Source: a bacterium
GTDB taxonomy: Bacteria > Planctomycetota > Planctomycetia > Planctomycetales > Planctomycetaceae
DNA length: 64,000 nt
Reading direction: 5' to 3'
NCBI GenBank assembly: GCA_016125225.1
Contig: WGME01000011.1
Coordinates: 1-64,000, forward strand
Shown here: positions 16,057 through 29,432 of the stretch, piece by piece
Numbering within the stretch: position 1 is the stretch's first letter
How the letters are laid out: each line of letters begins with the position of its first letter
Notes under the pieces: model-generated
Told to the model about the DNA's origin: nothing
What the model saw: only the letters and a program-made list of their open reading frames with translations
Databases searched by the model: none
Program-made: the position numbers and the translations under genes

Positions 16057-16090
16057 GTGTCCACGTCCCATACATAGGACATGTGGACAC
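16057..16090 (+). promoter_or_regulatory. Hairpin enclosing portal SD and start codon
   Basis: GTGTCCAC-GTCC-CATACATA-GGAC-AT-GTGGACAC; ATG at 16081. Confidence 0.6.
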
Positions 16091-17433
16091 AATTACGAAA
16101 CCTCTATTACGCCCTGTCGAATCCCAGAGCCGCAACGCTTCTCTCTGGCATCAGCACGCCCATTCCCGATATTTCGGTCACACGGGAAACCGTACTCGGC
16201 TACCCCGCCGTGTGGGCAGCGGTCAATCTGATCAGCCAGACCGTCGCCAAGCTGAAACCCTATCCTTACAAGCGGATTGACGACACAGGTCGAAAACTCG
16301 ACCGCCGCCACCAAGCCTACCCGCTACTGGCGAATAAGGCGTCCCGCTACGTTTCGGCTTCCAACTTCCGCTTGGACATGACTGCGTTAGCCCTGATTCA
16401 CGGCAACGCTTACGCATGGGTCAGACGCAACTCTTTGGGCGAACCCGAAGAACTGGTGATTCTTGATCCACGGTCCAGTTACTTCGACCAGATGACAGGG
16501 GTCTACCGCAGCACGGTCTACACTGACCAACAGCCCAATACCGTGCAAATCCTGCCCGAAAATGTGATTCACATTCGGGGTCTGGGTGGCGATGGCATCA
16601 ATGGGTATCCCGTCGTCAGCATTCTCGCCGATGCTCTCAGTAACTCGCTGGCATTGCAGAAAACTTCGGTCTACAGCTTCGGGAACAGTATGCACCCCAG
16701 CGGTGTGATCGAGACCCCGAACACCATCACGAAGAACGTAGACGAACTCAACCAACTACACGAGTCTATCGAGAAGAAATATGCCGGTCTGAGCAAAGCC
16801 GGAAAACTGATGCTGTTGCAAGGGGGACTCAGCTACAAGCCCGTCACCTTCAACGCCGAAGAAATGCAGTTCCTACAGTCCCGTGAATTCGACCTCCGAA
16901 CGATTGCCCTGATCTTCGGTCTCGGTGGTTGCGTCCACAAGTTGGCATCGTCAGTCAATTCGTCCTACGGCAGTATTGAAGCCGCATCCCTCGAATTCCT
17001 AGACGCTATCGACTTCTGGCTCTGCCAATGGGAGACCGAACTCTCTGACAAGTTGCTGACCGAACGCCAGAAAGACAACGACAGTCATTACATTGAATTC
17101 AACCGAGAAGCCCTGATCCGTATGGACATGTTGAACAAGGTCAATGCCATCGTGACCCAACGCAATAACGGTCTGTTGAATACGGATGAAGCACGAGCCT
17201 TGCTGAATCTGTCCCCACTGCCTGACGAACTTGGCGAGACCTACTATCTCCCTGCGAACCTCGTGCCGATGGGTCAGGAGAACGCAGACCCGCAGACCAT
17301 TGACCCCGATCAGGACAGTACGCCGCTGGAATTGCAGCAACAGCTAGACGCTACGGCAGGACAGGGGGGCAAAGAAGACGACCTTACAAAAGTTGTAATG
17401 TCCGAAACACAGGAGACAACCCCCGATGAGTAA
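16081..17433 (+). CDS. Phage portal protein (HK97 family)
   Basis: YPAVWAAVNLISQTVAKLKPYPYKR...GNAYAWVRRNSLGEPEELVILDP...DALSNSLALQKTSVYSFGNSMHPSGVIETP. Confidence 0.93.
   Translation: MWTQLRNLYYALSNPRAATLLSGISTPIPDISVTRETVLGYPAVWAAVNLISQTVAKLKPYPYKRIDDTGRKLDRRHQAYPLLANKASRYVSASNFRLDMTALALIHGNAYAWVRRNSLGEPEELVILDPRSSYFDQMTGVYRSTVYTDQQPNTVQILPENVIHIRGLGGDGINGYPVVSILADALSNSLALQKTSVYSFGNSMHPSGVIETPNTITKNVDELNQLHESIEKKYAGLSKAGKLMLLQGGLSYKPVTFNAEEMQFLQSREFDLRTIALIFGLGGCVHKLASSVNSSYGSIEAASLEFLDAIDFWLCQWETELSDKLLTERQKDNDSHYIEFNREALIRMDMLNKVNAIVTQRNNGLLNTDEARALLNLSPLPDELGETYYLPANLVPMGQENADPQTIDPDQDSTPLELQQQLDATAGQGGKEDDLTKVVMSETQETTPDE
17380..17402. promoter_or_regulatory. Dispersed palindrome copy 4
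   Basis: GACCTTACAA-AAG-TTGTAATGTC near the portal 3' end, upstream of the protease start. Confidence 0.8.
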
Positions 17434-17980
17434 ACCCGAATACCGCAGCCTTGCCGTGATGCCGACCACCACTGACCAGACGATCCAAGGTTATGCCGCC
17501 ACCTATTGGGACGGCACCGCTGATACCGAGTTCCGCCAAGGTCGCTTTGTGGAACGCCTCTTGCCGGACTCACTCGAACTCAGCCCAGCCCTGTATGCCT
17601 GTCTGGATCATGATGACTCAAGGGTGCTGGATCATGTGAAAGCCACCTTGACGACCGTGCTGGATGCCAGAGGCTTGGCGTATGCGTTTCCGTTGCGGGA
17701 ACAAGACCCCGACCATAGCACGCTCAAAGCCAAACTCGACGGCGGCTTGATCACGGGTTCTTCGGTGGCGTTCGTGATCACGGACGAAGACTGGAAACGG
17801 GAACGCACCGATCAGGTGCGTTACGTCAAGCGGGCAACCGTTTTGCATGTCTCGCCTGTCTATATCCCAGCGTATCCCGCCACCAGTGCAGACCTTCGCA
17901 GCCAACAGAATCTTTCCGCCTTGTACCAGAAATATCAGACAAATCTGCGAGTGGCACGCTTACATAAACTGGCGTTGTAG
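17426..17980 (+). CDS. HK97-family prohead protease
   Basis: IQGYAATYWDGTAD...RFVERLLPDSLE...ALYACLDHDDSRVL...GGLITGSSVAFV. Confidence 0.88.
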   Translation: MSKPEYRSLAVMPTTTDQTIQGYAATYWDGTADTEFRQGRFVERLLPDSLELSPALYACLDHDDSRVLDHVKATLTTVLDARGLAYAFPLREQDPDHSTLKAKLDGGLITGSSVAFVITDEDWKRERTDQVRYVKRATVLHVSPVYIPAYPATSADLRSQQNLSALYQKYQTNLRVARLHKLAL

Positions 17981-18019
17981 TCCAGCCTCGAACAACGCCT
18001 GCCATCTTTGTTTGACCGA

Positions 18020-18060
18020 CCGCAGACCATCACGTTAGCCCCGATGGTCTGCGGTTTTTT
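18020..18060 (+). terminator. Rho-independent terminator upstream of capsid
   Basis: CCGCAGACCATC...GATGGTCTGCGG-TTTTTT. Confidence 0.85.
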
Positions 18061-28143: not shown

Positions 28144-28154
28144 GACGATTAACC

Positions 28155-28580
28155 TCAGTCTAGGGTGATCACGAGGCTTCCCGCTGGCACCTGCAATACG
28201 TCGCCGTCGTCGATGGTCTTGCTGGTGTCGAGTGCCGCATACGCCAAGAGGTTCCCGCTGTCATGAGTGGCATCGTCGGTCACAGCGATAGCGACCACCG
28301 TTCCCCACGACCCCGTAGCCTGCGGGAACGTGATGTCCACGGCGTTCACCACCTGACCCGTAGTTACCGTCCAGTTGCTATCGCTGGCATCCAGTTGCAC
28401 ACGGGCATAGGCGTTGCTGTCAGCGACTTCCACGCCCGTCCCTGTTGAGAATTGCCCCGTGTCTCCGTCGATGGCGTTGGTGGTCAAGGCACAGATGGCG
28501 ATTTCGGACGGCTTACTCCATGAGTCAGTACCGAAAATGTGGTCTAACAGGTTCGTTTCGAGATAATTGGAAAACGACAT
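28155..28580 (-). CDS. Phage tail fiber-like protein
   Basis: MSFSNYLETNLLDHIFGTDSWSKPSEIAICALTTNAID... typical small phage tail protein. Confidence 0.7.
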   Translation of the reverse strand: MSFSNYLETNLLDHIFGTDSWSKPSEIAICALTTNAIDGDTGQFSTGTGVEVADSNAYARVQLDASDSNWTVTTGQVVNAVDITFPQATGSWGTVVAIAVTDDATHDSGNLLAYAALDTSKTIDDGDVLQVPAGSLVITLD

Positions 28581-28616
28581 AGATACTCCTATTGCTTAAA
28601 CAGATCAGGGGTATCT

Positions 28617-29432
28617 ATGCACGTCGATTTACAGAATGGTCGCTACTTCGGCGGTCTCGGTGATGCCGCCATGCTGAGTTGGATAGAGGGTCTTACGGTC
28701 AGGTGTTCCGAGTATCAAGTCCCCGTGTTCAAGGCGTTCGGGGTCAGCATTCAGAACGAATACAAAAATGGGATCAGCATCGACGATGCCTACCGCCGAG
28801 AGATGGCAGAGGGGGGACAACTCCCACGGTGGGTCTACATCTACGAAACCACGGGCATCAATTTCAGGATTTCCCGCCCGCCCTTGTGTCTGCCGGATGA
28901 AGTGATTGACAAGGCACGGTACAGACTCGACAAGGTGGGCAGACCGTGTGCCGTGCTGTTTCCCGAAGCGATGCACGCTGAACGTCAGATGCCATTACAT
29001 CTCTGGCTGAAGTTACAACACCAGTTGCAGGAGTCAGGCACCCATGCGGTCTTGTGTGGCACGAAGCCGATGCCAGAGAAAGCCGCACAGGTCAGAGCGG
29101 AGACCGTACCAGACCTGATGGCGTTGTGTGCGGCGGCGGATACCGTTTACTGCAACGATTCGGCACCGCTGCACATCGCTTGCACGCTGGGAACTCCGAC
29201 CGTGGCATTCTTGGGACCGACGAATCCCAACGTGTTCCACTATGACGAACTCACGGCGTATCTGCCTGATTTTCCATGTGTCTCGTGCCACTGGTCAGGG
29301 AAGGTGATGCGTCCGTGGTGCAAGGTGGGGTGTGAGGCGTTGTGTGGGGTTGGCTTGCCAGTGTTAAAAACACTTGAAGATGAAACCACAGTGTTGCAAT
29401 CAATCGTAAGCCCTGATGTTGTTTCGGTTTGA
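28617..29432 (+). CDS. GT9 (heptosyltransferase)-like glycosyltransferase
   Basis: DLMALCAAADTVYCNDSAPLHIACTLGTPTVAFLGPTNPNVF. Confidence 0.8.
   Translation: MHVDLQNGRYFGGLGDAAMLSWIEGLTVRCSEYQVPVFKAFGVSIQNEYKNGISIDDAYRREMAEGGQLPRWVYIYETTGINFRISRPPLCLPDEVIDKARYRLDKVGRPCAVLFPEAMHAERQMPLHLWLKLQHQLQESGTHAVLCGTKPMPEKAAQVRAETVPDLMALCAAADTVYCNDSAPLHIACTLGTPTVAFLGPTNPNVFHYDELTAYLPDFPCVSCHWSGKVMRPWCKVGCEALCGVGLPVLKTLEDETTVLQSIVSPDVVSV

Follow-up and report, generated by a model that had tools for sequence, protein, structure and literature searches.

A putative late promoter embedded in start-codon-hiding hairpins of planctomycete prophage genes

Introduction

In MS2 and R17, the coat-protein operator is a hairpin that encloses the start codon. 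The present study concerns hairpins over the starts of late genes in a prophage of a planctomycete (Planctomycetaceae, GenBank assembly GCA_016125225.1). The prophage lies in a stretch of 64,000 nucleotides of contig WGME01000011.1, here called the window, which is part of a 6.35-Mb genome. Besides the hairpins, its late genes carry a TANATA box at a fixed distance before the start codon, 10-11 nt in genes without a Shine-Dalgarno (SD) sequence and about 34 nt in genes with one. We consider it probable that a late promoter is embedded in the arm or loop of a hairpin that sequesters the ribosome-binding site (RBS) or AUG, and that only messages from this promoter are translated.

The closest described systems are the genes e, soc, 49, and I-TevI of phage T4 (also segB, and mobE of phage Aeh1), in which a late promoter lies within an RBS-hiding hairpin (PMC3014915, PMC2988022). 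On the long early RNA of e, soc, 49, and I-TevI the helix hides the RBS and the gene is silent. The 5' strand of this helix is encoded within the late promoter, whose own transcripts lack it and are translated (PMC3014915, PMC2988022). The late box of the T4 type is CTAAATA, beginning at -12 (PMC1524935). For Bacillus subtilis sigG, a large hairpin has been proposed to block the translation of read-through RNA, whereas transcripts initiated at the promoter of sigG itself could not fold in this way (PMC5942855). The initial annotation of the window, which pointed out the hairpins from the sequence, knew of no named comparable system; such systems do exist, as the four T4 genes share the same logic (PMC3014915, PMC2988022).

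Results

Six hairpins at the starts of separate prophage genes had been reported in the initial annotation, and inspection of the sequence located all of them to within 1-2 nt of where they had been placed:

16057..16090, plus strand: portal start hairpin, GTGTCCAC-GTCC-loop-GGAC-AT-GTGGACAC, with ATG 16081 in a 2-nt bulge
18098..18124, plus strand: major capsid protein (MCP) hairpin, a perfect 9-bp stem hiding the SD (GAGG); MCP ATG at 18128
23179..23217, plus strand: major tail protein (MTP) hairpin, 13-bp arms with one mismatch; SD and ATG 23215 in the right arm
24184..24225, plus strand: TMP start hairpin, individually weak in folding
25950..25973, plus strand: start hairpin of gene 25968
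28578..28619, no strand assigned: palindrome over the divergent starts of 28155c and GT9, CATAGATACTCC...GGGGTATCTATG

Under the last of these, 28155c starts on the minus strand (ATG 28580-28578) and GT9 on the plus strand (ATG 28617), and either arm is the box side of one gene and the SD/ATG side of the other.

The segments from -60 to +30 were folded and compared with dinucleotide shuffles, all hairpin energies being predictions at 37 °C. In this comparison MCP (z -4.0), MTP (-2.8), GT9 (-3.1), and 28155c (-3.4) stood out, as did the portal, whose z of -8.2 is inflated by an upstream terminator hairpin, and gene 25968, whose z of -4.2 belongs to a minimum-energy fold that partly draws on a neighbouring palindrome; TMP, on the other hand, was marginal (only -1.8). 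The energy needed to open the SD and AUG reached a z of at least 2.7 at 7 of 44 starts in two sister prophages, versus 3 of 140 host starts (Fisher p 0.002). By this measure TMP, 25968, and the portal are weak singly but significant as a class.

Box phasing was assessed in five prophages. In addition to that of the window these were L039, a sister on contig C32 of the same genome (G000:C32 1-16000) with a tail module 55-95% identical, and three found by a class-wide TMP profile search, namely L206 and L208 in genome G408 and L209 in genome G183, two genomes of another family. The late proteins of the latter three are mostly 26-43% identical to those of the window, and all three show both start classes, SD-type and SD-less. 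Among 46 starts, the distance from box to start codon showed sharp peaks, being 10 nt in 18, 11 nt in seven, and 34 nt in five. In SD-less genes, TACATA, TAGATA, and TAAATA boxes are found at -10 or -11 from ATG or GTG, while SD-type boxes lie at -32 to -42, with one at -25. TAAATA prevails in L206 and L208, and TACATA and TAGATA in the window, where the boxes are as follows:

16071..16076, plus strand: TACATA, portal, 10 nt before the ATG, in the hairpin loop
18094..18099, plus strand: TAGATA, MCP, 34 nt before ATG 18128
19475..19480, plus strand: TACATA, Ad1, 11 nt before ATG 19486; weak hairpin
23181..23186, plus strand: TAGATA, MTP, in the left arm, 34 nt before the ATG
24203..24208, plus strand: TACATA, TMP, 10 nt before ATG 24213
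25958..25963, plus strand: TACATA, gene 25968, 10 nt before ATG 25968
28580..28585, plus strand: TAGATA, GT9, 37 nt before the ATG
28612..28617, minus strand: TAGATA, 28155c, 37 nt before the ATG

Host DNA (300 kb + 160 kb) showed no peak in the distance from TANATA to start codons. The 6.35-Mb genome contains 11 copies of the string TACATA-N4-ATG. Seven stand at gene starts of the two sister prophages; of the remaining four, three lead into reading frames of under 10 codons and one into a frame of 117 codons.

A hairpin hiding the SD or AUG was predicted at all 12 SD-type starts of the five prophages, eight of which come from other prophages and were outside the set of the initial annotation. 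Opening the SD and AUG would cost 12-19 kcal/mol with the left arm present and 3-9 kcal/mol when the RNA begins after the box, taken here as the sixth nucleotide after it. The median fell from 16.4 to 4.3 kcal/mol, compared with 6.1 to 5.2 for control SD starts of the same phages. Shuffling only the left part gave p <= 0.02 for each SD-type start (Fisher 2e-15 combined). In the majority of these starts, the anti-SD lies immediately behind the box or overlaps it.

For 24 SD-less starts, the left flank pairs better with the start region of the gene it precedes than with the start regions found elsewhere in the same phage (p 0.0003-0.008), and still does so when the portal, TMP, 25968, and the sister TMP are left out (p 0.01-0.03). 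A permutation test with nine such starts was not significant (p 0.07-0.3), and a purely compositional origin of these small stems was discarded in view of the 24 starts from the five prophages. One shape that recurs among them consists of a stem, a loop with TANATA, an inner right arm (often RGGC), a bulge formed by the AT of the ATG, and an outer stem; it is carried by the window portal, L208_10160, the portal and TMP of L208, and L209_6733. As TANATA is in the loop in most predicted SD-less folds, the hairpins could be sites at which a phage RNA-binding protein binds the loop and represses virion translation, as at the MS2 coat-replicase operator. In SD-type starts, however, TANATA is in or below the left arm and not in the loop, and such a protein does not predict the A/T element and adjacent terminators described below, so we find this explanation unlikely. 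The common (T)ACATA loop of the initial annotation is part of TACATA and reads as a promoter-like element rather than as a protein-binding loop.

When 36 starts were aligned on the box, a second element appeared, consisting of four A/T-rich positions at -19 to -16 from the box. These are 84% A/T against a background of 47% (p 1e-19, or 4e-12 once duplicates and starts preceded by a terminator are excluded), and a motif search on this element found no sharp consensus past A/T richness. It precedes the box by 15 nt, a spacing that resembles that of -35 and -10 boxes. Terminators were found within 80 nt upstream of 9 of the 36 boxes, compared with 13 of 300 random positions (p 1e-4). Those in the window include:

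16023..16051, plus strand: intrinsic terminator-like hairpin ahead of the portal leader
18019..18055, plus strand: intrinsic terminator ahead of the MCP leader
19438-19470: terminator-like hairpin directly before the Ad1 box

In SD-less genes the box sits where a -10 box would yield a leaderless mRNA. Because of the second A/T element, the spacing, the nearby terminators, and this leaderless geometry, we read C(N)TANATA as a probable promoter. With T4 geometry, in which CTAAATA begins at -12, transcription would start at or beside the A of the ATG for box distances of 10-11.

Two alternatives place the mRNA ends differently. If transcription came from upstream of the hairpin, the stem would be the 5' end of every mRNA and would stabilise it or tune its expression, like the small RBS hairpin of sigG. 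The strong stems at MCP and MTP, presumably abundant structural genes, would fit, but TANATA is constantly beside the anti-SD, and SD-less starts with a box at -10 would require another promoter, which makes this alternative improbable. RNase processing, offered in the initial annotation beside translational control, could act through cutting at UANAUA, for instance by a MazF-like UACAU cutter, to give leaderless or trimmed mRNAs. Many boxes of the window and the sister do contain UACAU, where a cut would leave near-leaderless RNAs. The third base is, however, A, C, or G, hence there is no fixed UACAU; a cut at the box would retain the anti-SD in SD-type genes and leaves the upstream A/T element unexplained; and no toxin-like nuclease was among the early open reading frames (ORFs) tested. 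We thus disfavour RNase cutting and give it very little weight.

The sister MTP (93% identical) has a 13-bp stem with one compensatory G-C to C-G change; the A-A mismatch has become A-T, and one pair is lost at the loop end. At the sister TMP the hairpin is kept with changed pairs. The sister is without the GT9 gene, and its hairpin before 28155c is kept and longer (CATAGATGCTCCTG-N9-CAGGAGTATCTATG). In the distant prophages the MTP leaders of L206 (TAAATAACTTCACAATCATTTGTGAGGTTATTAAATG) and L208 (TAAATACCTCGTCACCATTTTCAGACGAGGACTCATG) have the box 34 nt before the start, and the L208 homologue of 28155c has it at 36 nt (TAAATACCCCTGAAACCCTTTTTCAGGCAGGTATCAGTG). The stems of SD-type starts are unrelated in sequence between the window and the distant prophages, while the architecture is kept.

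These comparisons bear on two further explanations. At MTP and 28155c/GT9 the two arms form almost perfect inverted repeats, and the 28155c/GT9 pair is genuinely divergent, as expected if the elements were dyad operators or promoters that bind a dimer as DNA, with RNA folding incidental. Against this, stem sequences differ wholly across genes and phages with SD/AUG pairing kept, and the SD-less flanks are unrelated yet still pair; a purely DNA-based role is in our view not likely. Coincidence, together with start cassettes that several genes share because recombination between genes has spread them, could account for the reuse of GGRGTATCTATG at 28155c, GT9, and 29463, but in the face of the controls, the shuffles, and the recurrence in distant prophages with different sequences we find it scarcely credible, the least so of all the alternatives.

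Protein scans of genome contigs and of viral contigs with MCP, MTP, and gene 25968 as queries found no close relatives, and TMP gave only distant matches (22-24% identity); the sister on contig C32 came from a separate search of genomes. In IMG/VR, the 79 starts of 28155c homologues that were read were plain, mostly with an SD-like stretch, and none had a box-and-hairpin leader; the hairpin is therefore no inherent feature of this family of genes. A pattern search of IMG/VR with CTAAATACCTC-N12-20-GAGG-N5-8-ATGGC returned seven stretches, two being repeats of one leader, and all fold with stems beyond the four pairs imposed by the pattern (13 bp in L244, for example). These stretches suggest that units of box and hairpin also exist in phages outside the planctomycete group, which agrees with the precedent of T4. 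The phages with CTAAATA and a long SD hairpin before the ATG are L244, L245/L249, L246, L247, L248, and L250; in L247, a 543-kb phage, the leader precedes a gene read as endolysin-like, and in L248 the hairpin follows a terminator-like run.

The element that carries the window genes is:

7165..30110, plus strand: prophage of 22.9 kb with the 26-bp att repeat GTTACCCCGCTAGGATTCGAACCTAG at both ends, an integrase, and late genes

It is inserted at a tRNA-Gln gene (30085-30156) and encodes an integrase, TerL, portal, protease, MCP, adaptors, a tail terminator-like protein, MTP, tail chaperones, and TMP. The flanking host genes contain DUF1559, DUF1549/DUF1553, and DUF1501 domains, which we take to be families typical of planctomycetes. 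At the gathering score of Rfam, two tRNAs were the only matches in the window, and the hairpins match no known RNA family there. The head module of L039 differs from that of the window prophage, which, next to the similar tail modules, points to a recent module exchange between the two.

A dispersed palindrome, TTACAAANNTTGTAA, occurs in exact form in the window at 8518, 10195, 12698, 17384, 20711, 22332, 25931, and 27185, with variants at 18069, 29846, 22032, and 14297 and L039 copies at 1771 and 15550. It is spread through the prophage, mainly at gene ends, and exact copies in the 6.35-Mb genome are limited to the two sister prophages. At the sister portal and at 25968 the palindrome overlaps the upstream half of the putative promoter, and a variant does so at MCP:

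25931..25945, plus strand: TTACAAAAATTGTAA palindrome, candidate operator that overlaps the upstream half of the putative gene 25968 promoter

The copies look like dispersed repressor sites resembling stoperators. A helix-turn-helix (HTH) protein with weak Sigma70_r4/HTH_26 matches (9388-10209), the gene of which ends in the palindrome, is a candidate for the repressor acting on them.

Further observations concern the neighbourhood. Gene 15717 is flanked by two copies of a terminator with a CCACGTCCC-TACA-GGA leader (15494-15548, degenerate, and 16018-16081) and looks like a moron inserted between them. Short direct repeats CTAACTCAGCTAACTTAGCTAACTCAGCTAACT directly follow TerL (15108-15145). 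A second integrase (5937-7070, minus strand) adjoins attL outside the prophage. The right part of the window may hold another prophage or a remnant, as it has a second terminase large subunit (48709-50205, minus strand), where no phased TANATA was seen.

Discussion

Selection to hide the start signals is well supported by the sequence comparisons. The initial annotation took the start-codon hairpins as deliberate translational control of morphogenesis genes, which is likely right in view of the compensatory change and of an architecture kept with unrelated stems. We infer in addition that TANATA is a promoter, where its transcripts start, and that translation is blocked by the hairpin. On this reading, late genes would singly or in small groups have their own late promoter, made up of an A/T tetramer, a 15-nt spacer, and C(N)TANATA, which overlaps the left arm or loop, while the right arm carries the start codon and, in some genes, an SD as well. 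Transcripts reading in from host read-through, early transcription, or leaky terminators would hold the whole hairpin, so that the SD/AUG is hidden and the gene silent. RNA from the gene's own promoter would start about 4-6 nt past TANATA, lack the left arm, and be open. It would be leaderless or nearly so for SD-less genes, and have a leader of about 20-30 nt with a free SD for MTP, MCP, and 28155c/GT9. This reading would also account for the position of the anti-SD or anti-AUG, outside the RNA started at the box, and for its being common to both classes.

Several points weigh against the embedded promoter and its hairpin. The sister copy of gene 25968 has neither box nor hairpin, and the MCP hairpin is present in the window prophage only, with no counterpart in L206, L208, or the sister. 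The pattern is also uneven. L207 shares its host with L206 and L208 yet is without phased TANATA, and no set of phased boxes is present in L031-L037; in the six family-level loci among them (L032-L037, 23-37% identity) TANATA is nearly absent and no start is phased save for one match at 11 nt in L034. At a distance of 10, the gap between box and ATG is 4 nt, slightly short for bacterial RNA polymerase. Relative to other prophage starts (2/22) the terminator enrichment is not significant (p 0.18), and a Pfam search of the prophages for Sigma70_r2 gave no match. Start codons were inferred from ORFs, many TANATA starts were selected by eye in lists of ORFs, some of them by choice among alternatives, and the window's own starts helped to shape the idea.

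Other searches bear on the factor involved. No late-sigma PHROG was found among the ORFs tested, and a sigma-70 promoter scan showed no excess. With the early proteins of the window as tblastn queries for a shared early regulator, the other prophages matched only the integrase, HNH, the 8610c protein (versus L040), and the tail-region 27202c. A DUF2158-type protein common to L206 and L233 was considered as a shared regulator and rejected, having no homologue in the window. It is possible that a very divergent phage factor, or a host sigma, recognises the box.

Taken together, a bipartite promoter (A/T box, 15 nt, CNTANATA) combined with a start-codon-hiding hairpin may represent a new class of phage late-gene control that restricts the translation of almost every virion gene to a transcript of its own, often a leaderless one, and uses a factor other than gp55/gp33/gp45, a proposal that we make tentatively, at somewhat less than even confidence. 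If true, what is known from a few genes of T4 would apply as a rule to structural genes throughout a group of temperate phages in a poorly studied phylum. It would explain how a prophage lies in transcribed host DNA without output of capsid and tail proteins. It would also provide a promoter prediction for planctomycete phages, with mRNA 5' ends predicted almost to the nucleotide, and suggest that a single unit of 40 nt can combine a promoter with a translational lock, of possible use in genetic circuits insulated from read-through.

As in the MS2/R17 operator, the start codon here lies within a hairpin; unlike there, no RNA-binding protein or fixed loop context was found. The sigG hairpin differs in concerning a single host gene with an ordinary forespore sigma promoter. 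Leaderless gene starts of bacteria such as mycobacteria (PMC4633059) are similar in having a promoter box about 10 nt before the ATG and no SD; the genes studied here differ in that a hairpin containing the box also surrounds the start codon. The likeness to T4 is closest. In both, the SD and/or AUG is paired in RNA initiated upstream (predicted here, at 12 of 12 SD-type starts and at the 24 SD-less starts as a class), and the box is in the DNA coding for the 5' arm or loop (here as a sequence element). The boxes themselves appear similar, T4 having TATAAATA/CTAAATA, L206 and L208 mainly TAAATA, and the window TACATA and TAGATA. T4 employs the sigma gp55 together with gp33 and gp45, while no gp55-like sigma was found in these prophages. 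T4 late promoters are without a -35 element (PMC2988020), in contrast to the A/T tetramer found here. Unlike in T4, the phages are small, temperate, and from another bacterial phylum, many morphogenesis genes are involved at once, and the majority class is SD-less and apparently leaderless. The lock of box and hairpin apparently evolved separately from that of T4.

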